Shown in pieces: positions 4,747 through 17,777 of a DNA stretch of 24,884 nt (position 1 is its first letter; the number at the start of each line of letters is the position of its first letter). The notes beneath the pieces were generated by a model. The model was not told the origin of the DNA. It saw only the letters and a list, made by a program, of their open reading frames with translations, and did no database searches. The position numbers and the translations under genes were made by a program. The stretch lies in IMG/VR virus record IMGVR_UViG_3300006735_000233, positions 1 through 24,884 of that record, one strand, 5' to 3'. This stretch comes from a virus.

Positions 4747-4974
4747 CTATGTCTTAACTTTAATTGTTCCATTATCGTTAAATAATGATCCTGCTTCTAA
4801 ACCCTCACTTGATGTTGGTAAATCAGTAAGTGTTATTTTTGTACCACGTAATTCACCAGGATTTTGCAATTGATTAACCAACTGACTTAAACTTCTTACC
4901 ATCTCACTAAAATATTGTGGATCATACTCATCTGGTGGCAAGGAGAAATTTGGTGGTACAAGTTGTCTACTCAT
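4747..4974 (-). CDS. Small conserved structural-region protein, unknown function
   Basis: This 75-residue protein has an ATG that overlaps the stop of the upstream stabilisation-like gene (ATGA), which favours translational coupling and a real gene. The N-terminus is Pro-rich (LVPPNFSLPPDEYDPQYF). A short amphipathic helix follows (MVRSLSQLVNQLQNPGELRG), then a beta-like C-terminus ending in NDNGTIKVKT. Small proteins of this layout are common next to tail genes in marine podoviruses. I do not recognise a named family and see no motif. Confidence 0.75.
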   Translation of the reverse strand: MSRQLVPPNFSLPPDEYDPQYFSEMVRSLSQLVNQLQNPGELRGTKITLTDLPTSSEGLEAGSLFNDNGTIKVKT

Positions 4975-6773
4975 CTATCTCCATCCCTTCTTAAATCAAC
5001 TCTATTTGTTCCAAGTCTCCAATTAACTTTTGGTGTAGTGCTTTCAACTCTTAATCCAAAAGATCTGCCTCTTAATCTTAAATGATTGATTTCTGTTGAT
5101 GATGTTACAATATTTTCAGATGTTTTTACAAAACCACCATTAGGAGATCTTTGTGCTTTTAATGAAAACAAAGCTTTTTTATCGCTTTCATTTATATCAT
5201 TATCACTATTATCAAAGCTAACGTCAGGTATCATTCTTCTCAAAAATACAAATTGATCACCATCTTGTATATCTATAGGACTTGATTGTATAAATGATGT
5301 AAAAGCAGTGCCATCATTATCATTACCCTTTTCATGGTTGTACAAAAGATTAGAGTCAGTGGCTATAGGATATTGATAAACTCCACGATCTAACCACGAA
5401 CTTCTTTTTAAGTTACCTACATACCATATTTTTTGATCATAATTATACACTACATATTTATCATTTTCTCCATCACCACCATTTGATACTGAATTTGTGG
5501 TTGATGGATAAAACCAAAAGACCTCTCCAAAAGCTGAATTTACTCCTGCATAAACTTTACCTGCTTGATTTTCATTAAAATCTCCAAGTACAAAATCTCT
5601 AACAGAACATGGAATCACTTGGACACGACCATCATATATATAAAAACGATCATAGCCCATCCACATAACAGCATCACCTACAGCAATTGCACTGTTAAAT
5701 CCACGGACAGTTATCGCACTAGCTAATTGATTTATACCAAAAGTAAAAGGTGGTCCTATAAATTGCATACTATGTACAGAAGTATCTGTTAAAATAATTA
5801 TTTCTCTTCTTGTTTTGACTGCTGTAATTATCTCTGATCCTGAACCTATTCTTAAACTACCTGCAGTATTTGTAGCAGATGGTGTCCAAAAAAAAGGATT
5901 TTCTTGAGAGCTAAATCTAACTAAAAGTCTATCTTGTTCCTGAGAACCTAAAGGACTTGCTCCAAAACAAATAACATGACGATCTCGTTCAGAGACTATT
6001 ACTTTTCTTGATTTAAAAGGAGCTGCGTCAGATAATTCTAAAAATGACTTAGCCCGTGTGCTTGTGCCAAGAGTTTTGTCCCAGTAAAATAAAAAACCAT
6101 CTCTCTGATTAAATATTAAATCCTCTCCAAAATTATCTTGAGACCATAAACGTAGTGATTCTCCAGTAATTGTATCGTTGGATCTTTCTCCCCATCCTGT
6201 AAAATCATCAGTGGAATTTGTATTACCAGTGGCTAACTGTACAATACTTCCGTCAGCATGAGCAGATGCTGTTGTTCCCTCAGATCCTCTTGTAACTGTT
6301 AAATTATTTGAAGAGACATTTGTAACTGTTAATAATTCATTATCAATCAATATAACATCTGTTGCGACAATTCCAGAAGCAGTAGTGACAGTAAGCGTTG
6401 TATCAGAATTAGAAAATTCTGCACCCTCATTTATTGTTGTAGTTAAAGCAAAGCTATTTGTACCACCCCATTTTCCTGCACCCCAACCAGTACCAGGCAC
6501 AACAGTGTTTATACCTATATTAAACTGATATTCGGCATCAGCAGAGCCAGCTCCTGTAAGAGCTGCATCAGCATTACCACTTAAAGTTATTACATAATTT
6601 GCACTATCAGTTACAGATGTTATAGAAAATTCATTGTCTAGTTTAGTATTTAGAGCACTGTTTCCAGTATTAGCGTTACTAAATGTAACGAAACTACCAG
6701 TTCCAGCTCCATGATTAGGATCATTAACAGTTACCGAAGCAGAAGATGTAGTTGTTGTAAATGTTATTGCCAT
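4971..6773 (-). CDS. P22-stabilisation-like tail protein, C-terminal (main) part of a split gene
   Basis: I place the start at the ATG at 6773 (600 residues), four bases after the TAA codon of the upstream gene begins (TAA-A-ATG). An in-frame ATG at 6806 would add 11 residues, but has no ribosome-binding site and overlaps the upstream gene. The protein is beta-rich. An N-terminal Thr/Ser/Asn domain is followed by the motif GTGWGAGKWGG near residue 95. Next comes an inserted repeat-like domain containing TVTRGSEGTTASAHADGS (about 158-176). The long C-terminal domain begins at RLWSQDNFGEDLIFNQRDG. The layout matches podoviral stabilisation-type tail proteins (P22 gp10-like). In related phages I recall this region being fused to the RPGINKE-type domain encoded here by the separate upstream gene. 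Confidence 0.8.
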   Translation of the reverse strand: MAITFTTTTSSASVTVNDPNHGAGTGSFVTFSNANTGNSALNTKLDNEFSITSVTDSANYVITLSGNADAALTGAGSADAEYQFNIGINTVVPGTGWGAGKWGGTNSFALTTTINEGAEFSNSDTTLTVTTASGIVATDVILIDNELLTVTNVSSNNLTVTRGSEGTTASAHADGSIVQLATGNTNSTDDFTGWGERSNDTITGESLRLWSQDNFGEDLIFNQRDGFLFYWDKTLGTSTRAKSFLELSDAAPFKSRKVIVSERDRHVICFGASPLGSQEQDRLLVRFSSQENPFFWTPSATNTAGSLRIGSGSEIITAVKTRREIIILTDTSVHSMQFIGPPFTFGINQLASAITVRGFNSAIAVGDAVMWMGYDRFYIYDGRVQVIPCSVRDFVLGDFNENQAGKVYAGVNSAFGEVFWFYPSTTNSVSNGGDGENDKYVVYNYDQKIWYVGNLKRSSWLDRGVYQYPIATDSNLLYNHEKGNDNDGTAFTSFIQSSPIDIQDGDQFVFLRRMIPDVSFDNSDNDINESDKKALFSLKAQRSPNGGFVKTSENIVTSSTEINHLRLRGRSFGLRVESTTPKVNWRLGTNRVDLRRDGDR

Positions 6774-6774
6774 T

Positions 6775-7353
6775 TTAAGAAATACCCACTGTAACTGTTG
6801 ATTCATTTGTAACAGATATTGTTACATTACCTACTGCTGTATTCATTCCTATGTCTACTAGTGTTGTATTTGTAATAATTGTTGGAGTGCCAACTGCTGT
6901 TGTGCCAACTACTTTTAATTCATCTACTGGATTTTCTGACTCTACAGAAATTGTCTGTGCATTGTCTATTACAACTGTACCCACTGCACTAGTTCCTGCA
7001 TTTCCAGTTACCAATGATTTTATAGTATCTCCATCAAAGTCAACAGTTGTCACACCATTTTCAACTTTTCTTCTTATTGGAGTTATGTCTTTTAAATCAA
7101 GGGATTCTTCAATATAAAATTTTATTTCTGTACCAATACCAAGGTACTTATCACCCTCTAAATTTGCCCATGCATGTAAAGATCTAGATGTCCCTAAAAA
7201 AGTGGTGACTGCATATTTTTCCCATCCACCAAGTTTTTCTGGATAACCAAAACGAAAACGAATAAGATCGCAATCATTCCAACCACCTTTATTGGAATAA
7301 GATGTTGTTTCTTTGTTAATACCAGGTCTAAATTTTAAAGATGTAATTGGCAT
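6775..7353 (-). CDS. P22-stabilisation-like tail protein, N-terminal part of a split gene
   Basis: This is a 192-residue protein. Residues 1-90 carry the recognisable start of the marine stabilisation-like tail family (SLKFRPGINKETTSYSNKGG, then WNDCDLIRFRFGYPEKLGGW and YLGIGTEIKFYIEE). After about residue 95 it turns into low-complexity Val/Thr/Gly beta repeats (TTAVGTPT, NTAVGNVTIS), resembling the repeats of the fibre protein at 14954-16300. It stops with TAA just before the ATG of the main C-terminal gene. The ATG at 7353 has no Shine-Dalgarno sequence: the 20 upstream bases are all A/T-rich. This is unusual here, and it lies next to the accessory cassette. It probably works as one complex with the downstream gene product. 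Confidence 0.8.
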   Translation of the reverse strand: MPITSLKFRPGINKETTSYSNKGGWNDCDLIRFRFGYPEKLGGWEKYAVTTFLGTSRSLHAWANLEGDKYLGIGTEIKFYIEESLDLKDITPIRRKVENGVTTVDFDGDTIKSLVTGNAGTSAVGTVVIDNAQTISVESENPVDELKVVGTTAVGTPTIITNTTLVDIGMNTAVGNVTISVTNESTVTVGIS

Positions 7354-7372: not shown

Positions 7373-7957
7373 TTAATGTGAAAAATGTCTATACCAACCC
7401 GTGGCTATATATTTAATATTACTAATAGGTGGATTACCTCTATGAGTGTGAGTAAAATAGGCTGGAAATAAAACCATAGATCCTATTTTCGGCTTAATTC
7501 TCATAGAATAATTTAAAAACTCAAGCTCTCCACCTTCTTCAACATCATTTAAAAAAATGCTCCAAGCTAAAAATCTTGTTTTGCTTTCGTATGGACCAGC
7601 GTTATTTTCACTATGCCAATTATGAAAGCCACCAGAAATAGGCGTTTCTTGAAATTTAAAGTTTTCAAAAAAAATATTACCATCTTCAAAAAATGAAGAA
7701 CAATTGTTCGGAAAAATTTGTTTGTATAAATTTAAATATTCATCTAATGCTTTTGAAAAAACTTTAGAACAATCATCTGTGGTCATGGATTCTAAAGTTG
7801 ACTGCCCATCCCATTGTTTGTCTACTCTTTGTGGTTGATTCGAAACTATAAAATTATTTTGTGAATTTAATTTTTCAATAATTTTTTCACAAATTTTTGG
7901 TTTTATAGCATTATCAATAGTAACGATAAAGTTTTTTACATCCACTATTTTATCCAT
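7373..7957 (-). CDS. 2OG-Fe(II) oxygenase-like protein, HxE variant (cassette)
   Basis: This 194-residue protein has a strong GGAGG ribosome-binding site before the ATG at 7957. The double-stranded beta-helix core is recognisable. The first metal pair is probably H115-S-E117 in FHNWHSENN, with Glu in place of the more common Asp. The beta-turn EEGGELEF lies at 140-147. The distal ligand lies in YFTHTHRGNPP (H170 or H172). K182 in IKYIATGWYR sits where the 2-oxoglutarate-binding Arg/Lys is expected. It belongs to the prolyl-4-hydroxylase-like oxygenases common in marine phages. Such enzymes use Fe(II), O2 and 2-oxoglutarate to hydroxylate a protein or small molecule; the substrate cannot be told from the sequence. 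It is the last gene of the cassette. Confidence 0.88.
   Translation of the reverse strand: MDKIVDVKNFIVTIDNAIKPKICEKIIEKLNSQNNFIVSNQPQRVDKQWDGQSTLESMTTDDCSKVFSKALDEYLNLYKQIFPNNCSSFFEDGNIFFENFKFQETPISGGFHNWHSENNAGPYESKTRFLAWSIFLNDVEEGGELEFLNYSMRIKPKIGSMVLFPAYFTHTHRGNPPISNIKYIATGWYRHFSH
7698..7709. repeat. 12-bp palindrome GAACAATTGTTC
   Basis: A perfect 12-bp palindrome lies inside the oxygenase gene at 7373-7957, followed by G so that the right flank also matches the 14-bp form CGAACAATTGTTCG. It is part of the repeated palindrome family found at 868-883 and 22567-22580. Confidence 0.5.
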
Positions 7958-7972
7958 TATTAAAGTCCTCCT

Positions 7973-9109
7973 CTACCAAAACATAAGATATGCGTCACCA
8001 ACTCTTGAAAGAACATATTGTTTCATTCTTTTAAAAGCAAAATCTAAATCATTTAATAAAATTTCAATGTCCTCTGTGCCAGTATAAATTCTTAAATATT
8101 GACCAGACGGCACATAACTTGATTTTAATTTTCTAATTTTAGATACGTCTGTTGTTGCTAATAAACTATGATTCCCCCCCCACGAAGTGCCTATTTTAAA
8201 TATCTTACAATTATTTACTAATTCATTTACAGCTTCTTTTGAAATATTATCTTTAAACTCCACAGCAAAAACACCAGAAGCACCTTTAAAATATTTTTTC
8301 CATACTTGATAATCTGGATGACTTTCTAAAGCAGGGTGAATGACTTGTTTTATTTCTTCTTTACTTTCTAAAAACTTTGCTATTTCAATACTATTATTAG
8401 ATGATTTTTTTAATCTAATAGACAATGTATCTAAACCTCTTAGAACTAAATAAGCATCATCAGAACTAACACATATTCCACTGTTTCTGCACCATCTTTG
8501 TAGTTCTGATAAATATTTTTTGTTAGCTAAAGTCACACCCATCAATACATCCGAATGACCTGAGGCGTATTTACTTATAGCTTCAATAACAATATCAGCA
8601 CCAAAATCAAATGGATTTAAATATAAAGCAGTTGCCCAAGTATTATCTACAATGGATTTTAAATTACGTTTTTTACAAATTCGAAGTACATTTTTTACAT
8701 CTGCTAATTCAAAGGTATATGCACCAGGACTTTCAACATAGATTGCTCTTGTATTTCTTTTTATTAAAGTTTCTAATTTTTTTAAATTTCTTGGATTATA
8801 AAAAGTAAACTCTATTTGTAGTCTAGGAAACTCTTGTTCAATGTATCTTCTTGCAGATTCTAGTACACAGTCTGGTATCAAAATATGATCTTTTGATTTT
8901 AAAATTGACATCAATGCTACTGTTATAGAAGTCATACCAGAAGGTGTTAAAACGCAACCATGTGCATTATAAAGATTAGACAAACGATTAATTAATAAAT
9001 TAGTTGTTGGTGTACCCTCTCTTCCATATTTATTTTTAGTTCTAAAATCTTCCATGTTAGAACTTGTAATTGTAGTTGCTCTATGGATGGGTGGAGACAA
9101 TGTACTCAT
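7973..9109 (-). CDS. metC-like: Cystathionine beta-lyase-like PLP enzyme (MetC family)
   Basis: This 378-residue protein matches the full length of the Cys/Met-metabolism PLP family. Visible landmarks are YGREGT (28-33), the phosphate-binding loop TPSGMTS (55-61), VESPGAYTFE (125-134), the pyridine-nitrogen Asp in DNTW (155-158), and the Schiff-base lysine K180 in SKYASGHSDVLMG. RGLDTL (224-229), the substrate-side SWGG (309-312) and R340 in LRIYTG follow. GHSD after the lysine and SWGG near the C-terminus are typical of cystathionine beta-lyase rather than gamma-synthase. The expected reaction is cystathionine to homocysteine, pyruvate and ammonia, though C-S lyases of this fold are promiscuous. 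Its ATG overlaps the stop of the upstream oxygenase gene (ATGA). It is not a standard phage gene. An eight-G run encodes part of SWGG. Confidence 0.9.
   Translation of the reverse strand: MSTLSPPIHRATTITSSNMEDFRTKNKYGREGTPTTNLLINRLSNLYNAHGCVLTPSGMTSITVALMSILKSKDHILIPDCVLESARRYIEQEFPRLQIEFTFYNPRNLKKLETLIKRNTRAIYVESPGAYTFELADVKNVLRICKKRNLKSIVDNTWATALYLNPFDFGADIVIEAISKYASGHSDVLMGVTLANKKYLSELQRWCRNSGICVSSDDAYLVLRGLDTLSIRLKKSSNNSIEIAKFLESKEEIKQVIHPALESHPDYQVWKKYFKGASGVFAVEFKDNISKEAVNELVNNCKIFKIGTSWGGNHSLLATTDVSKIRKLKSSYVPSGQYLRIYTGTEDIEILLNDLDFAFKRMKQYVLSRVGDAYLMFW
8174..8181. repeat. Homopolymer C8 (G8 on the coding strand) inside the metC-like gene
   Basis: Eight consecutive C on the plus strand read TCG-TGG-GGG-GGG-AAT on the coding strand and encode Ser-Trp-Gly-Gly-Asn. 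No other G/C run of this length was noticed in this AT-rich window. The tract is currently in frame. Confidence 0.7.
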
Positions 9110-9687
9110 GGAATTTGAACATCTACTTTAATATTACCTGAACATATTACACTATCTCGACCAAAAGATCTGTGTGGCAACCAACCTGGAAATAGTATTA
9201 TATCTCCTTCTTGAACTGTTATTTCATGTTCTTTATTTTCTGCTATAAATAAAATTTTTCTAATATCATCACATTTTAAATACCAAACAAAACTATAATA
9301 ACCAGGTGCAGATCGATGTGTATGTAATTCAAAATGTGTTTGTTCTGTAAACTCAGTCATCCACATATCCATCATATCCATGTTTTTCGGATATCTTACA
9401 ATAGCGTCTCTTAAACTAGTGCAGTAATGAGTGCAATCAACAAACAAGTCTAACAACACATTTGAAATATATGGTTTAATGTATTTATCTTGTATTTCTA
9501 TAATTTGATGTAAGTCCATTTTACTAAAAAACTTTGGCTCAACACAAGATCTTACTTTATTATTTACTACATATTCATTCTGTATGGGATATTTTTTTAC
9601 ATCATCAATAAAAGACTTGTTAATACTTCTTGTTATTTTACCAAGAGCTATTTTTGTAGGTGTCATTATTGAATATACGGAGTTCAT
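9106..9687 (-). CDS. 2OG-Fe(II) oxygenase-like protein (2OG-FeII_Oxy_5-like) (cassette)
   Basis: This is a 193-residue protein. Its ATG overlaps the stop of the QueC-like gene (ATGA), and its own stop overlaps the metC-like start in the same way. The motif HFELHTHRSAPGYYSFVWYL (118-137) supplies the first metal histidine (H122 or H124). EGDIILFPGWLPHRS (160-174) supplies the distal one (H172). The H-x-H with a following Ser/Gly/Tyr strand, and the FPGWLPH strand, resemble the putative 2OG-Fe(II) oxygenase family PF13759 found in cyanophages and pelagiphages. Residues 1-80 are a helical N-terminal part without clear motifs. The substrate is unknown; a cupin-like non-catalytic role cannot be excluded because the acidic ligand is not obvious. 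Confidence 0.82.
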   Translation of the reverse strand: MNSVYSIMTPTKIALGKITRSINKSFIDDVKKYPIQNEYVVNNKVRSCVEPKFFSKMDLHQIIEIQDKYIKPYISNVLLDLFVDCTHYCTSLRDAIVRYPKNMDMMDMWMTEFTEQTHFELHTHRSAPGYYSFVWYLKCDDIRKILFIAENKEHEITVQEGDIILFPGWLPHRSFGRDSVICSGNIKVDVQIP

Positions 9688-10370
9688 AATGGATTACCTT
9701 CTTTATCAATAATACCATATTTTTTATGTGATTTACATTTAGGACATATATCACAAGTCCAATCACCTGAGTTACAACTTCTAACTAATTTTTTTAAATC
9801 CATTTCCAAAGAATCCCAAGATTCTTTTTTGTTTTTAAAACTATCTATGCCAGTGCCTTTGTAAATTGTAGCTGGAGTGCAATACTGAATATCTTGATTA
9901 GTGCCTCTATTTCCTACATCCAAAAAATATTGAAAGTTTTCGTGAGTGAAATATCCAGGATAAGTGCCTAAACCATAAAAATCATCAGGGTTGTATCTAT
10001 CTTTTAAGATATCGTCAGAAAAAGTAAAATGCCCTATCCACATTTTTTTTATTCCATAAGTATTACAGAACTGAGAAGCAAAAAAAGCACCCCATTGATT
10101 ATCAGAACCAAAATAACTGCGTTCATCATGCTCGTCTAAAGTTGTTAACACAGTGGCTTGTGAATACTCAAAGTCACCATATTTTTCTCTCACATATTTA
10201 AGAACATTATTCGCTGCAATGTTTTGTAATCTAATTCTTGGTTGTGCTCTTTTTGCCCAACCCATTTCAATATAAAGCACTCTTACTTTTTTCTTTTCTT
10301 GCAAAAAGTGTTTTAGTAATACTGTGCTATCTATACCCCCTGAGAAAAGAAGTAATTCTGTATCACTCAT
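9684..10370 (-). CDS. queC-like: QueC-like PP-loop ATPase with Cys4 zinc site (cassette)
   Basis: This is a 228-residue protein, the usual length for QueC (7-cyano-7-deazaguanine synthase). The N-terminus has the PP-loop SGGIDS (10-15) that binds and cleaves ATP to AMP and pyrophosphate. The C-terminus has C199-x6-C206-x2-C209-x2-C212, like the zinc-binding cysteine cluster of QueC. Between them, WIGHFTFSDD (111-120) lies where QueC has its substrate loop, but the match there is weak. True QueC converts 7-carboxy-7-deazaguanine to preQ0. No queD, queE, folE or transglycosylase gene is in the window, so the substrate may differ. QueC-like proteins also occur in antiphage operons (QatC, type IV CBASS), so the fold is used outside queuosine synthesis. 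It is coupled to the downstream oxygenase by an ATGA overlap. Confidence 0.85.
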   Translation of the reverse strand: MSDTELLLFSGGIDSTVLLKHFLQEKKKVRVLYIEMGWAKRAQPRIRLQNIAANNVLKYVREKYGDFEYSQATVLTTLDEHDERSYFGSDNQWGAFFASQFCNTYGIKKMWIGHFTFSDDILKDRYNPDDFYGLGTYPGYFTHENFQYFLDVGNRGTNQDIQYCTPATIYKGTGIDSFKNKKESWDSLEMDLKKLVRSCNSGDWTCDICPKCKSHKKYGIIDKEGNPL

Positions 10371-10375
10371 ATAAA

Positions 10376-11011
10376 CTAACCCTTTGGAAAATTTTCAGAA
10401 ATAAGAGTGGGTCTTGAATATGCTCTGTCATTAATATACTCAAGTCTTGGTCCTGCTCCAAAGTAATTTATATTAATAGTTATTCTAAAAGGAACATTAG
10501 TTGGCGAGGAGCTTGAATGTGGTGTTGCTGCATTAAAAATCAACAATCTGTTTTCTATGGCTTCTATCTCTGTGCCATCTGCCATGTAAGTTGGAGCATC
10601 ACACGCAGTCACATAAAACAAAGCTCCTTGATGAAACATTTCATAATCTATATGTGGTGCGTGTATATTATGAGCTCCTGTTCTAACATACAAGTTAGCT
10701 TTAATTCTCATCAAAGCATTAATATGTATTTTGGATGTCAAGTTTATAAATGGATTTATATCAACATCTTTTCTCCATTGATCTGTTGCATAGTCTTGGA
10801 CATTAAATATAAGTTTAGCAAGATAAAAGTCTTCATTTGATGTATCGTATGCATTTATTTTTTGACTTACATTCCAACCCATTCCTGTAGTCATATAATC
10901 CTTCAACAAACCAAAATCTTGCAACGGAAGAAAATTGTCCCACACAGCATAATAACAGTCACCAAAGGTGCTAAACTCGCTACACTTTTTTGTAAATTCA
11001 TTTTTATCCAT
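10376..11011 (-). CDS. 2OG-Fe(II) oxygenase-like protein with HxD...H...R (cassette)
   Basis: This is a 211-residue protein with an AAGGA ribosome-binding site nine bases before the ATG. The facial triad is easily placed: H120-I-D122 in HAPHIDYE and H165 in NAATPHSSSSP. R176 in FRITININYF is the expected 2-oxoglutarate-binding arginine. The strand FHQGALFYVTACDAPTYM between them fits the double-stranded beta-helix. Families with this layout are common in marine phages, where they are annotated only as oxygenases. It differs strongly from the other four in the cassette, so a simple local duplication is unlikely. The substrate is unknown. Confidence 0.87.
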   Translation of the reverse strand: MDKNEFTKKCSEFSTFGDCYYAVWDNFLPLQDFGLLKDYMTTGMGWNVSQKINAYDTSNEDFYLAKLIFNVQDYATDQWRKDVDINPFINLTSKIHINALMRIKANLYVRTGAHNIHAPHIDYEMFHQGALFYVTACDAPTYMADGTEIEAIENRLLIFNAATPHSSSSPTNVPFRITININYFGAGPRLEYINDRAYSRPTLISENFPKG

Positions 11012-11022
11012 ATCTATTCCTT

Positions 11023-11586
11023 TTATCTAAATGATGGACCAAGAAACCAACTCACTAGACTATACCTGATACCTTTAGTGACTGGTTGGACTCCGTGATT
11101 TAAATAAGACGGAAAGAAAACAACTGTTCCTTGTTCTCTTGCATCTTCTTGTACAAAATTTTGTTTATCGTCTGGAAACTCTAACTGACCACCTTCATAA
11201 TATTCAGGTGATGTAAGTTGTGCAGACATCGATAGTTTTCTAACTGGTTGATTTGGTGGGTTTTCGTAAAAACCATCTATATGTGGTTTGTAAAAACCTT
11301 TATTTTTTTCATCATATTTAGTTAATTGAAATGTTTCTGGTTCTATTAAAGTAAATTGATAAAATTCTTTGTTAACTCTATCTACTAATTCAAGTATTGG
11401 TTTATATAGTTCAAAATATTTAAGGCTACCATTAAAAAAACAAATTTCACTATCTCTTATTTTTTTGTTTACCTCGCCATCTCCAATACTACCTTTGAAA
11501 ACCATCTCATTTTTTTGTAGCTTAATTATGTTCTCACAAAATTCTGAAGATAGTGCTTTTTTTGCTACAATTATGTTTCTTTTCAT
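11023..11586 (-). CDS. PKHD-type 2OG-Fe(II) oxygenase / prolyl hydroxylase-like protein (cassette)
   Basis: This 187-residue protein shows the classic PKHD/PiuC-type signature. H102-I-D104 sits in YKPHIDGF and the turn EGGQLEF at 131-137. VVFFPSYLNHGVQPVTKGIR (155-174) holds H164, and R174 precedes YSLVSWFLGP. All residues for Fe(II) and 2-oxoglutarate binding are present, so it should be catalytically competent. Members of this family hydroxylate proline or related residues in proteins, or act in iron-linked processes; the target here is unknown. Its ATG overlaps the stop of the first cassette gene (ATGA), so the two are translated together. Confidence 0.9.
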   Translation of the reverse strand: MKRNIIVAKKALSSEFCENIIKLQKNEMVFKGSIGDGEVNKKIRDSEICFFNGSLKYFELYKPILELVDRVNKEFYQFTLIEPETFQLTKYDEKNKGFYKPHIDGFYENPPNQPVRKLSMSAQLTSPEYYEGGQLEFPDDKQNFVQEDAREQGTVVFFPSYLNHGVQPVTKGIRYSLVSWFLGPSFR

Positions 11587-12122
11587 TGTGTGACTGCCGT
11601 GTCATGGTATAAATCTGGTCTTTTGTCGTACTTATATTCTGGATAATATTGACCATCTTTTTCTATATAATGAAGAAAGACTTGACGATGCCAATCATAT
11701 TTAAGTTCGTGTCTCCAATGCTCTTGAACACAACCATTATATATAACACCCTCACCAACATTTAACTTAAAAATTTCATCCTCTACATTTATCGACCATA
11801 TATCTTCTTTGTGAGAGGCATCTATACAAAGAGTTACACTCACTTCACAACTGGGTCTATCTTTGTGAGGTGGACAATCTTGTGTTTTAAAATAAGTTCT
11901 CCAAAAAGAATAGGTTGGCACTAATTCTTTTCCATAAGATTCTTCTATTTTTGGTTTAATAAAATTTAGTAAATTTTCAAAAACTGGATCAGCGTACACA
12001 CTTTTTGATCCAGCAAACATTTCATCTTTACTTGGTTGTATTTGATTTTCTACATGTGCCATATGCATAGACAAACATCTAGCATGGTCTTGTTCTAAAA
12101 GTTTTAATTTTTTATTGATCAT
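11583..12122 (-). CDS. 2OG-Fe(II) oxygenase-like protein, first gene of the cassette
   Basis: This is a 179-residue protein. The metal pair is probably H86-K-D88 in PPHKDRPSCEVSVTL. The distal histidine lies in GCVQEHWRHEL (H135 or H138). HRQVFLHYIEKDGQYYPEY (145 onward) gives the end of the beta-helix and a candidate 2-oxoglutarate-binding Arg (R146). The pattern HxD, then a CID...W strand, then GEGVIYNG is typical of phage and marine bacterial 2OG oxygenases of unknown substrate. The gene starts after a 52-base gap. Its ribosome-binding site (AAGG) lies at the edge of a hairpin. The leader AAGGTAGCAAAAG is nearly the same as the one before the gene at 17058-17777. Confidence 0.86.
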   Translation of the reverse strand: MINKKLKLLEQDHARCLSMHMAHVENQIQPSKDEMFAGSKSVYADPVFENLLNFIKPKIEESYGKELVPTYSFWRTYFKTQDCPPHKDRPSCEVSVTLCIDASHKEDIWSINVEDEIFKLNVGEGVIYNGCVQEHWRHELKYDWHRQVFLHYIEKDGQYYPEYKYDKRPDLYHDTAVTQ

Positions 12123-12174: not shown

Positions 12175-12555
12175 TTATGACCAAGGAAAAGAAGCTACGA
12201 AATTACCATCAGAATCATTACTGCCTTTAGGAGAAGAGCCATTAACTTTTTCTTGAAAGTCAATATCAGCCTCTATCTCTGCTTTAATATTTGCTAGTAT
12301 TGAAGAATCTATTCTGTTTTCAACCCATGTCTTAACATCTGCTTCTTTAACAGATCCATATGCAGTAAAGCTACTATCTATATTGTCTACATTCATGTCT
12401 AAATCAAAACCACCTTCAGCAGATATGCTACCAATTGTTTCACTAGTTCCTGTCAATGTTGCATCAACCCTAAGTATAGCATCAGTGTAAGTTTTTCCAC
12501 TTTTTGTAATATTTTTTGTGTATAATTTATTTATTTTCCAAGCATATGTTGCCAT
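12175..12555 (-). CDS. Small tail-region protein starting MATYAWKI, unknown function
   Basis: This 126-residue protein is coupled to the adhesin gene by a TAATG overlap. The beta-rich first half (MATYAWKINKLYTKN, TYTDAILRVDATLTGT) is followed by an acidic helix (VKTWVENRIDSSILANIKAE) and a Ser/Gly/Asn-rich tail ending in ASFPWS. Phage proteins with a MATYxWxI start, a beta sheet and a VxxWVE helix occur next to tail fibre genes in cyanophages and marine phages. Function is not known. Its position directly downstream of the adhesin makes a fibre partner or chaperone a reasonable guess. Confidence 0.8.
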   Translation of the reverse strand: MATYAWKINKLYTKNITKSGKTYTDAILRVDATLTGTSETIGSISAEGGFDLDMNVDNIDSSFTAYGSVKEADVKTWVENRIDSSILANIKAEIEADIDFQEKVNGSSPKGSNDSDGNFVASFPWS

Positions 12556-13859
12556 TATTCCGTGCCTCCTGAAACTGTGCCATTATTTGTAAAAGTTACG
12601 TTTGAAAATCCTTCTATTGATTTACCTGCTGCTCCAACGGCTCCAGCAGAACCACCACTAGAACCTGATGTTGATGAACTGGTGCCAGTTGTTCCTGTAG
12701 ATCCAGCAGAACCATCTGCTCCAAAATCTCCACCAGCACCTCCAGTAGCACCTGCACCACCATTTCCAGCAGAACCAGTTGATCCACTTGATCCACTTGA
12801 TCCAGAATCACCACCTGGTTGATTGTTAAAACCTCTACCTAAACCACCAGCACCACCAGCACCACCATTATGTCCAGTTACTTGTGTTTGCTGTTGTTGT
12901 GATTGTGGGTATTGTCTGTAAATAGCGTATCTTATTGATTGTCCCCAACCTTGTAATTCCATAGAAACACCTATAGGACTTGATTGCTGTTGAGGACCTC
13001 GGTAATAAGTATATTGACCTTGAGTATATGATGTAGAGTTATAAGGTAAATTAACAGTGCCTGGTGGTCCACCTCCAAATCTTGCTCTTGATCCATAAGT
13101 GTTGTTAGTTGTACCTTGATAAAGTGTAAAAGCATTTGATGCTGGACTTTGGTATGGACCAGGTGAACCATTTAATCGAACCCACATAGAAGCATTATCA
13201 CCTGGTGAATGTTGATAGGTTGGACCTTGTTGAGCAGTGGTCTGTTGTTGTTGTTGTTGAGAAAGATTGCCACCTTTACCTCCTCCTCCACCACCAGAGC
13301 CACCTCCACCTCCAGCTAGTAAACTTCCATTATTTACAAAAGTCACTGCTACAGAGGCTTTGAAAGCATCACCACCAGCAGATCCAGCAGACCCAGCACC
13401 ACTATTAGCACTTCCACCTGATCCACCTGCTCCACCAGCACCCATGATAGTTCCATTATTTGTGATAGTAATTGTACCATCACCACCACTATCTGCCTCA
13501 AGAGCATATTCAGAAGTGTTGTTTGTTCCTAAAGTTACTGAATCTGGAATGACTACATTTTTTGGATAGTCTACTCCATAATCTGTAGATCCAAACAAGT
13601 CAGATAAGTTTTGATCTGTAGCACCAGAGGAATATGTAAATGTAAAACTTTTAGCTTGATCGTAAAAATCACTTACATCTAAAGCACCACTTTCTGGAAC
13701 ACCTGCTGCATCATTTGTGGCAGGATTAGAGGGATGCTTTGCTCTAATGTTTGAGCCACCTCTGTAAAGATCGCCAAGACTGATGGCACTTGAACCACCA
13801 ACAAATTCTGTTCTTAACGCTGAAAACGATAGAGATTGTCCAGAGCTTGGTATCGTCAC
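12555..13859 (-). CDS. Gly-rich tail adhesin, gp38-like polyglycine protein
   Basis: This is a 434-residue protein starting with GTG at 13859, preceded by a full GGAGG ribosome-binding site. Residues 1-70 resemble the N-terminus of marine phage fibre proteins (SLSFSALRTEFVGGSS, ISLGDLYRGG). From about 128 it alternates strands of type TITITNNGTIMG with glycine runs at 139-164, 182-197 and 332-412, and ends with VTFTNNGTVSGG. This NNGTI/Gly-run design resembles T-even gp38-type adhesins, whose polyglycine loops pack into a sandwich and carry variable receptor-binding loops. Residues 198-330 are Gln/Tyr/Pro/Ser-rich and would be the variable part. Around 350-395 Gly falls mostly every third residue, collagen-like but nearly without Pro. 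It probably binds the host surface at the fibre tip. Confidence 0.8.
   Translation of the reverse strand: MTIPSSGQSLSFSALRTEFVGGSSAISLGDLYRGGSNIRAKHPSNPATNDAAGVPESGALDVSDFYDQAKSFTFTYSSGATDQNLSDLFGSTDYGVDYPKNVVIPDSVTLGTNNTSEYALEADSGGDGTITITNNGTIMGAGGAGGSGGSANSGAGSAGSAGGDAFKASVAVTFVNNGSLLAGGGGGSGGGGGGKGGNLSQQQQQQTTAQQGPTYQHSPGDNASMWVRLNGSPGPYQSPASNAFTLYQGTTNNTYGSRARFGGGPPGTVNLPYNSTSYTQGQYTYYRGPQQQSSPIGVSMELQGWGQSIRYAIYRQYPQSQQQQTQVTGHNGGAGGAGGLGRGFNNQPGGDSGSSGSSGSTGSAGNGGAGATGGAGGDFGADGSAGSTGTTGTSSSTSGSSGGSAGAVGAAGKSIEGFSNVTFTNNGTVSGGTE
13243..13259. repeat. Short (TTG)n tract encoding a Gln run in the adhesin
   Basis: The tract reads as five uninterrupted TTG units plus a partial one (CAA on the coding strand) and encodes six Gln at about residues 201-206 of the adhesin. 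A related Gln-rich stretch, QSQQQQ, is coded near 12890. In-frame slippage here would change loop length without breaking the gene. Confidence 0.6.
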
Positions 13860-16777: not shown

Positions 16778-17065
16778 TTAGAGTCTCCTTATATATTCAG
16801 CCGTTTCCTTTTGACCACTTGATCTCAAGGCTTGAATTATAGTACCACGCTCTTCTCTTCTTGCCAATAGAAGATAATGATACAACACTTTTTTAAGATG
16901 CTCTCTAAATTGATTAGCTTGTTGTCTTATATGTGGTGGTGCTTGATCAGAAATACTAACTATTTTATCAACAGCTAAATCTGAAATCTGTTCATTGCTT
17001 AATCCACCTTGATCTGAAGTCTTAACATTTACACTTCCTACTTCCGAAACACTTACGTTAAACAT
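16778..17065 (-). CDS. Small conserved phage protein, helical C-terminus
   Basis: I choose the ATG at 17065 (95 residues, MFNVSVSEVGS) rather than the in-frame ATG at 17080. An AGGAG ribosome-binding site seven bases ahead fits it exactly, and the upstream candidate start would place this site inside the gene. The N-terminal part is beta-like. The C-terminal two thirds are helical, with RQQANQFREHLKKVLYHYLL and a basic end. Similar small proteins are common in the same place in marine podoviruses; function is unknown. It overlaps the end of the upstream gene by 8 bases. Confidence 0.85.
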   Translation of the reverse strand: MFNVSVSEVGSVNVKTSDQGGLSNEQISDLAVDKIVSISDQAPPHIRQQANQFREHLKKVLYHYLLLARREERGTIIQALRSSGQKETAEYIRRL

Positions 17066-17777
17066 TTTTTTTCTCCTCATATGTTACACCTGGAATATCT
17101 TCTCTACCAATTATGTTAGGCGTTGCATCCAATGGTTCTGGTGGTTCTAATTTTGATTTTTTTGTAATTAACATACTACCTTGTGTTGTAGTAGAAACAA
17201 GTGGATCATCAAGTCTATGATAGCCATACAGTTTTTGATCCTCTGAAACATTAGTATCTAATAAAGAAGAATTATTTGCTATGTGTAACTTTATTCCCTT
17301 TGATACTGCAATTGCCAACCAAAATTCACAACAAGCTCTACCTGCTTCTGCAAAGTTAACTGCCTTGTGTGTAAAATCTATACCGTATAAATGCAAATCA
17401 GAGACTTCTTCTGCCACTGCATAAGCAAGTGCATAAGCAACCGTATTGTTAAGATAAGCATATTTAGTTTTTTTAAGCACCTTTTGTAGAGGATATTCTA
17501 CAACATCAGGACATCTCTCATCTAATGTACAAGAAAAAATAGGTACATTGAGTTTAACTTTTAATCTATCTGACATTATATTAGTTTGCTTTCCTGCATT
17601 AGGTGTGTCAAGAAATCTTGATGGAGGGTCCATCATAAAACACTTGTCATGGTATATTACACCTGACATTGCATTAATAGCCCATACCTCATCAAATTTT
17701 TCACTTCTAATTTTGGCTAATATATATTCTGAAAAACTATTGCCAAGACCAACAATAGCTATGCTTTTGTTTTTCAT
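17058..17777 (-). CDS. Rossmann-like protein, resembles MptE/DUF115-type phage proteins
   Basis: This is a 239-residue protein. The N-terminus is a hydrophobic strand followed by G10-L-G-N-S14 (KSIAIVGLGNSFSEYIL), a nucleotide-binding-type loop. VWAINAMSGVIYHDKCFMMD (31-50) ends in Asp, as in DUF115/6-hydroxymethylpterin-pyrophosphokinase-like families. YGIDFTHKAVNFAEAGRACC (131-150) and EFWLAIAVSKGIKLHI complete an alpha/beta core. The last 60 residues are Pro/Glu/Lys-rich and probably flexible. Proteins of this type occur often among structural genes of marine phages with no known role. The family assignment is a resemblance only. The ribosome-binding site is AAAGGTAGC. Confidence 0.8.
   Translation of the reverse strand: MKNKSIAIVGLGNSFSEYILAKIRSEKFDEVWAINAMSGVIYHDKCFMMDPPSRFLDTPNAGKQTNIMSDRLKVKLNVPIFSCTLDERCPDVVEYPLQKVLKKTKYAYLNNTVAYALAYAVAEEVSDLHLYGIDFTHKAVNFAEAGRACCEFWLAIAVSKGIKLHIANNSSLLDTNVSEDQKLYGYHRLDDPLVSTTTQGSMLITKKSKLEPPEPLDATPNIIGREDIPGVTYEEKKNV
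17073..17077 (-). promoter_or_regulatory. Ribosome-binding site deciding the start at 17065
   Basis: AGGAG on the minus strand followed by seven A residues and ATG. It supports the start at 17065 and argues against the longer form from 17080. Confidence 0.8.

Follow-up and report, generated by a model that had tools for sequence, protein, structure and literature searches.

The question raised by this locus is what seven adjacent enzyme genes, several of them related to the 2-oxoglutarate (2OG)/Fe(II) oxygenases, accomplish among the tail genes of a virus. The genes occupy positions 7373-12122 of the virus record IMGVR_UViG_3300006735_000233, all 24,884 bases of which were analyzed (the window); the record is linear and is probably a fragment. 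Its capsid protein and that of pelagiphage HTVC023P share 69% identity, and the window is therefore assigned by sequence to a podovirus of the HTVC023P type, presumably with a SAR11 host. In this report, we propose that the cassette is a tailoring module that chemically modifies the adhesin encoded just upstream, and we assign this reading a probability of about 0.5.

The genes were designated A to G in the order of transcription, beginning at the 12122 end. As a previous sequence-only reading had described, they run in the late direction with three overlaps of the ATGA type. All seven are intact, are encoded on the minus strand, and start with ATG. Overlaps of 4 bases were found at three of the six junctions (A/B, D/E, and E/F), and the remaining genes are separated by 11 (B/C), 5 (C/D), and 15 (F/G) bases. 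The G+C content of genes A to G is 0.285-0.335, slightly under the window mean of 0.354. Contigs L002 and L003, from two other metagenomes, encode a cassette and tail proteins that are 99-100% identical to those of the window, and thus the cassette is not an assembly artefact. PADLOC identified no defence system and assigned only QueC-like and CRISPR-associated 2OG labels. The relevant unit begins upstream of the seven genes and includes the adhesin gene (12555-13859) and the small gene that follows it (12175-12555).

The evidence that ties the enzymes to the adhesin comes from relatives of the window. A search with the tail protein encoded at 4971-6806 returned 80 viral loci, which were dereplicated at 97% tail-protein identity to 45 lineages. 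Two modules are the main alternatives found at this place. The first is composed of the Gly-rich adhesin, the 12175-12555 gene, and genes A, B, and C, in a constant order with occasional insertions, followed by optional copies of D, E, F, G, or other oxygenase-like genes in an order that varies after C. The second is composed of an adhesin of ~850 residues and a protein of ~190 residues, with no oxygenase. At least three oxygenase-type genes were present in all 17 lineages with the Gly-rich adhesin and in none of the other 28 (Fisher test, 9e-13, a value that is too strong since the lineages are related). None of the 21 lineages with the alternative adhesin carries A-B-C, and no PF13640 protein was found on the whole contigs (32-58 kb) of eight relatives that lack the Gly-rich adhesin. 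A-B-C accompanies this adhesin in the same order in every close relative with a readable region. The combined state of Gly-rich adhesin and A-B-C changes nine times on the tail-protein tree, with at least seven of the changes forced by supported branches, and the adhesin and A-B-C have therefore been exchanged repeatedly as a unit.

Dozens of related loci keep A, B, and C in this order, and the cassette is thus not a chance assembly. The previous suggestion that the genes form a co-selected late modification cassette, rather than a random gain, held for the core: these genes are not single and scattered in relatives, and the order A-B-C-D is kept in many of them. D, E, F, and G are missing from many relatives that keep A-B-C. 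This coming and going, and the variable order after C, would be expected if the locus were an accessory-gene hotspot beside the fibre genes with no shared function. A hotspot would not be expected to hold A-B-C in one order, always with the same adhesin, and to exclude it from every lineage with the alternative adhesin. The strict co-occurrence argues against a hotspot for A-B-C, although E to G may still fit one; for the cassette as a whole we regard this explanation as rather improbable. Among the three targets that had been suggested for the modification, which were a virion protein, a nucleobase, and a small molecule, a virion protein is the best candidate because the cassette tracks the adhesin type.

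The features of the locus are summarized in Table 1.

Table 1. Features of the adhesin and oxygenase locus, listed in the order of transcription (aa, amino acids)
Feature	Coordinates	Strand	Basis
Predicted polyglycine receptor-binding adhesin, gp38-like, 434 aa, family Gly content 23%	12555..13859	-	AlphaFold2 model and alignment
Adhesin hypervariable segment, ~residues 213-325, probable receptor-binding loops	12885..13223	-	alignment; low-confidence part of model
DUF7936 protein, 126 aa, between adhesin and gene A	12175..12555	-	PF25590 8e-10; synteny
Gene A, putative Fe(II) oxygenase, 179 aa, phrog_2954	11583..12122	-	phrog_2954 1.4e-42; invariant HxD...H
Gene B, 2OG-Fe(II) oxygenase (PKHD-like), 187 aa	11023..11586	-	PF13640 5e-16
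Gene C, 2OG-Fe(II) oxygenase, 211 aa, phrog_274	10376..11011	-	PF13640 matches in family; invariant residues
Gene D, QueC-fold PP-loop enzyme, 228 aa, remodelled substrate site; optional	9684..10370	-	structure model and motifs
Gene E, cupin/2OG-like protein, 193 aa; optional	9106..9687	-	phrog_81 1.8e-17; PF13759 1.4e-4, below cut-off
Gene F, MetC-like PLP (pyridoxal 5'-phosphate) enzyme, 378 aa; optional	7973..9109	-	PF01053 4.6e-96
Gene G, 2OG-Fe(II) oxygenase, HxE...H...K site, 194 aa; optional	7373..7957	-	PF13640 3.7e-12

We take the protein encoded at 12555-13859 as a polyglycine-II receptor-binding adhesin with hypervariable tip loops, on the basis of its predicted structure. In an alignment of 18 homologues, Gly-rich blocks were found on both sides of the hypervariable segment. 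The AlphaFold2 model has a mean predicted local distance difference test score (pLDDT) of 72; the Gly-rich parts are mostly above 80, and residues 1-38 and the variable segment are poor. The model was found to match the gp38 adhesin of Salmonella phage S16 (6f45_D) with Z 19.1 over 216 aligned residues (root-mean-square deviation 5.0), and that of Escherichia phage PP01 (9v85_A) with Z 18.3 over 192 aligned residues (root-mean-square deviation 2.5); the next-best match has Z 6.0. The window adhesin thus resembles the two gp38 tips in predicted fold, Gly-rich blocks, and hypervariable loops. At E 1e-5, the phage collection gave no match to this protein or to that encoded at 12175-12555, although the simple-sequence filter may hide matches to the former. 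Relatives have the DUF7936 gene at the same position, after the gp38-like adhesin gene and before gene A, and its product could be a fibre chaperone, an adaptor, or a substrate of the modification.

Metal and cosubstrate residues had been placed in all five presumed oxygenases from the sequence of the window. This assignment was upheld for B, C, and G and only in part for A and E. In gene B, H102-x-D104...H164...R174 is invariant in 18 sequences, and in gene G the corresponding residues are H115-x-E117...H172...K182, also invariant in 18 sequences; both proteins pass the cut-off of the Pfam model 2OG-FeII_Oxy_3. The sequence of gene C itself has no Pfam match, and 15 of the 28 members of its family match PF13640 (2OG-FeII_Oxy_3). 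The only invariant columns in these 28 sequences are H120, D122, F159, H165, and R176. Judged from these residues, B, C, and G belong to the 2OG-Fe(II) oxygenase superfamily, with the metal triad and the Arg or Lys intact. Across 20 strongly diverged homologues of gene A, H86-x-D88-R89...H135-W-R137 is invariant (W136 nearly so), and the usual Arg ~11 residues past the distal His is not conserved. None of 33 members of the gene A family passes the cut-off of a Pfam 2OG model, and a very weak match is AlkB-like. The conserved residues make gene A a likely Fe(II)/2OG oxygenase. Gene E has three invariant His residues (H122-x-H124...H172), and a 2OG-binding Arg was not found in its alignment. Comparison of families A, C, and E with B using hhalign gave nothing significant (probabilities of 0.2% for A-B, 1.9% for C-B, and 24% for E-B), and membership in the superfamily therefore rests on the residues and on the scans of single members.

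Homologues of A and C carry other names in many phage records (for example, NC_008296.2, NC_015290.1, and MN698239.1), in which these HxD...H proteins are labeled "ferrochelatase" (phrog_2954) or "DNA endonuclease V" (phrog_274). Neither label was supported. In Pfam, at E up to 1, no member of the gene A family (0/33) matches a ferrochelatase model, and conservation is centred on the HxD...H motif. No member of the gene C family (0/28) matches the T4 DenV pyrimidine-dimer excision family in Pfam at E up to 0.1, compared with the 15 that match 2OG-FeII_Oxy_3.

The co-location of oxygenase genes was known before and has been read as iron metabolism or DNA repair; the link to an adhesin is new. 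For the HTVC023P type of phage, to which the window belongs, PMC9599517, a study of 80 genomes, already reports the co-location of 2OG genes with homologues of gene A and discusses the co-located 2OG genes and "ferrochelatases" as iron regulation. Neither tail fibres nor QueC turned up in a term search of that study, which draws no link to an adhesin. Nine 2OG genes are described in cyanophage S-SZBM1, with the DNA-repair idea cited (PMC9146016). In the open-licence literature, we found no work that ties 2OG oxygenases to Gly-rich tail proteins, or prolyl hydroxylase to cyanophage tails.

One of the two main rivals to adhesin tailoring is that the cassette is a set of auxiliary metabolic genes, which would either produce a small molecule or enhance the metabolism of the host, for example for iron or heme. 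The MetC-like and QueC-fold enzymes, the amino-acid-binding protein encoded beside D in some phages, the halogenases found elsewhere, and the iron interpretation in PMC9599517 would all suit such a role. The failure of the "ferrochelatase" label tells against it, and the presence of the cassette tracks the adhesin rather than the rest of the genome. We consider a metabolic role unlikely.

Similar arrangements were found in other phages. Homologues of gene A are present in 156 records and those of gene C in 228 records of cyanophages and pelagiphages, and of the records whose arrays comprise three or more oxygenase genes, 13 were inspected. A Gly-rich tail protein, mostly of family PF21722, is encoded within 5 kb of the array in 11 of the 13 (HTVC033P, HTVC023P, HTVC008M, Mosig, S-CAM8, S-SSM5, P-RSM4, Sf-CH11, S-CREM1, syn9, and S-ShM2). 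These 11 are not all independent, since S-CAM8, S-SSM5, and P-RSM4 share one cassette type, and the chance expectation for 11 of 13 is raised because oxygenase and Gly-rich genes both favour the fibre region. The arrays of syn9, S-CREM1, S-CAM8, Mosig, and HTVC023P share with the window the homologues of A, B/G, and C, the tail region, and the nearby Gly-rich tail proteins. They differ in that no homologue of D or of the adhesin gene was found in the phage collection, in that halogenases or carbamoyltransferases take the place of D and F, and in that the Gly-rich family is mostly PF21722, a different one from that of the window adhesin.

Tryptophan halogenases are encoded in the arrays of syn9, S-CREM1, and Sf-CH11 and, for HTVC008M and S-ShM2, in the broader surroundings of the array, and carbamoyltransferases in those of S-CAM8, S-SSM5, and P-RSM4 and in L123 among the contigs that bear gene D. 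The records with halogenases or NodU-type carbamoyltransferases in or next to an array are NC_008296.2, OP535465.1, PV340848.1, NC_021530.1, GU071097.1, NC_015283.1, and L123. These enzymes hint at a wider set of tailoring reactions. Since carbamoyltransferases could also modify glycans, they bear on the other main rival, in which the enzymes alter the host surface or the receptor bound by the adhesin, so that progeny are protected or superinfection is blocked. The linkage would then reflect the matching of enzymes to a receptor, and the same strict pairing of adhesin and enzymes would be expected. However, no surface-modifying enzyme family was recognized in the window cassette, three or more stand-alone 2OG proteins would be an unusual toolkit for changing a surface, and placement in the late operon suits virion proteins better. 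Modification of the host surface is thus also a rather unlikely explanation.

For tailoring of the adhesin, the simplest reading is that A-B-C acts late in infection to hydroxylate the adhesin or its partner. A-B-C is then the tailoring module and D to G are optional additions; we infer the substrate, the chemistry, the modified residues, the products, and the benefit. B, C, G, and probably A would act as hydroxylases dependent on Fe(II), O2, and 2-oxoglutarate, with side chains of the adhesin or of the protein encoded at 12175-12555 as their targets. Hydroxylation during the late phase may alter stability, the chemistry of the loops, or the binding of the receptor. Genes D to G would extend this chemistry in some lineages. 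More speculatively, D might use ATP to activate a carboxylate and couple it to an amine, acting on the protein directly or preparing a building block. Similarly, F might make or remove an amino- or sulfur-bearing group. The more specific scheme offered in the sequence-only reading, in which D amidates, F supplies sulfur, and the oxygenases act in succession, is without support, and D to G are absent from many relatives with A-B-C.

Several observations weigh against tailoring of the adhesin. Linkage alone would move the adhesin and the enzymes together. The enterobacterial phages S16, PP01, and T2 have no PF13640 protein, and gp38-type adhesins can therefore fold and work without such an oxygenase, whereas the window adhesin is followed by five oxygenase-type genes and that of its relatives by at least three. 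One or two oxygenases are present, with no Gly-rich adhesin, at loci L019, L021, and L032. Four loci that lack the Gly-rich adhesin (L118, L120, L121, and L126) have gene D next to a gene for an amino-acid-binding protein, and D and the tail genes are on opposite strands. Among the phages with arrays, S-SCSM1 has a single Gly_rich_2 gene, 25 kb away from its array, and the nearest Gly-rich gene in S-RIM32 is ~8 kb away and below the cut-off. Relatives of gene A are also found as solitary genes among replication genes.

Gene D had been described as a QueC-like ATPase, and it is QueC-like by predicted fold but is not a canonical QueC. Sequence matches are found mainly in the N-terminal ATP-loop region, and the match to QueC (1.4e-4) is just below the cut-off. 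The AlphaFold2 model (pLDDT 75, with residues 116-136 poor) is most similar to QueC (3bl5, Z 14.6), Cap9 (9nto, Z 14.2), and QatC (9y02, Z 12.7), and D shares with these enzymes the fold, the SGGxDS loop (SGGIDS at residues 10-15), and a four-Cys zinc motif (CX6CXXCXXC at 199/206/209/212). The loop and the four Cys residues are invariant in 23 homologues, except that D14 is Glu in one. The substrate motifs of canonical QueC, YxQxHxxE, VPxRN, and YPDC (PMC13329287), are absent from all 23, and for this reason D is set apart from the canonical enzyme. The family has conserved residues of its own, D90, W93, K181-K182, and R197. Homologues were found at 39 loci, on viral contigs only; no bacterial homologue was found by a profile scan of genome contigs, and the phage collection contains no match to D at E 1e-5. 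In L118, L120, L121, L122, and L126, gene D and oxygenase genes adjoin a gene for a solute-binding protein of family 3, of the amino-acid-binding type and with an apparent signal peptide; except in L122, this whole group of genes runs opposite to the tail genes.

The QueC fold of D, together with the very weak AlkB-like match of A and published proposals that link cyanophage 2OG proteins to DNA repair, would be consistent with a hypermodified DNA or RNA base for which D is an enzyme of the queuosine pathway. However, no PTPS/QueD, radical SAM, or TGT family was found in the nine records that bear gene D, which are fragments, the motifs that bind deazaguanine are gone from D, and the cassette is located in the tail operon. 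A nucleobase had been among the suggested targets; its modification by way of 7-deazaguanine is thus unsupported, and we regard a base modification as very improbable.

A second possibility for D is a Cap9/QatC-like activity, in which a phage protein would receive a group at its N-terminus. The second-best structural match of the model is a Cap9 structure that includes the protein modified by the enzyme. QatC, which has also lost the Tyr/Asp pair for deazaguanine recognition, still acts in a protein complex, and the substrate assigned to it is a protein (PMC13279940). No Met-Gly N-terminus was found among the cassette, adhesin, or partner proteins, however, and among other virion genes, Met-Gly starts show no correspondence with whether D is present. 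Such an activity at an N-terminus appears improbable.

Gene F can be assigned from its sequence to a diverged PLP protein of the MetC family of cysteine and methionine metabolism. The PLP site, previously described as intact, was confirmed: the protein matches Cys_Met_Meta_PP, and the Schiff-base residue Lys181 lies within SKYASGHSD. The protein is below every NCBIfam equivalog cut-off shown. Its best bacterial relatives are 27-32% identical and belong to unrelated phyla, and F is therefore uninformative on the host. Matches in the phage collection are ~30% identical, and some are probably host DNA within phage records.

Two other features of the window were noted. A 239-residue protein encoded at 17058-17777 is 77-95% identical among several relatives compared, which is unusually conserved for the region, and it has no convincing match in Pfam, NCBIfam, or PHROG. 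The tail or virion protein at 4971-7353 is encoded by two genes across the 45 nearest lineages and by one gene in more distant phages. The two parts are joined by TAATG-like junctions, which occur in all three phases among relatives, some of them in frame after the stop. A programmed frameshift at 6775-6806 was ruled out on these grounds in favour of a gene fission. The two genes are probably coupled in translation, and the ATG at 6773 is the probable true start of the second.

The arrays, taken together with the window, raise the tentative possibility, on which we place limited weight, of a dedicated multi-enzyme post-translational pathway in marine phages that acts on polyglycine receptor-binding proteins, with hydroxylation supplemented in particular lineages by halogenation, carbamoylation, or ligation by a QueC-fold enzyme. 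Chemical changes would then add to sequence variation in diversifying receptor recognition, and the QueC fold would have a further protein-directed role. Cyanophages and pelagiphages are among the commonest viruses of the ocean. For the many 2OG oxygenases that they encode, no function has been agreed on, and DNA repair and iron have been guesses. The unsupported labels "ferrochelatase" and "DNA endonuclease V" have been widely propagated, which affects the published inferences on iron metabolism and DNA repair. The link between the arrays and adhesins provides a direct hypothesis for these enzymes, and it can be checked from the masses of tail proteins in the virions of cultured phages.

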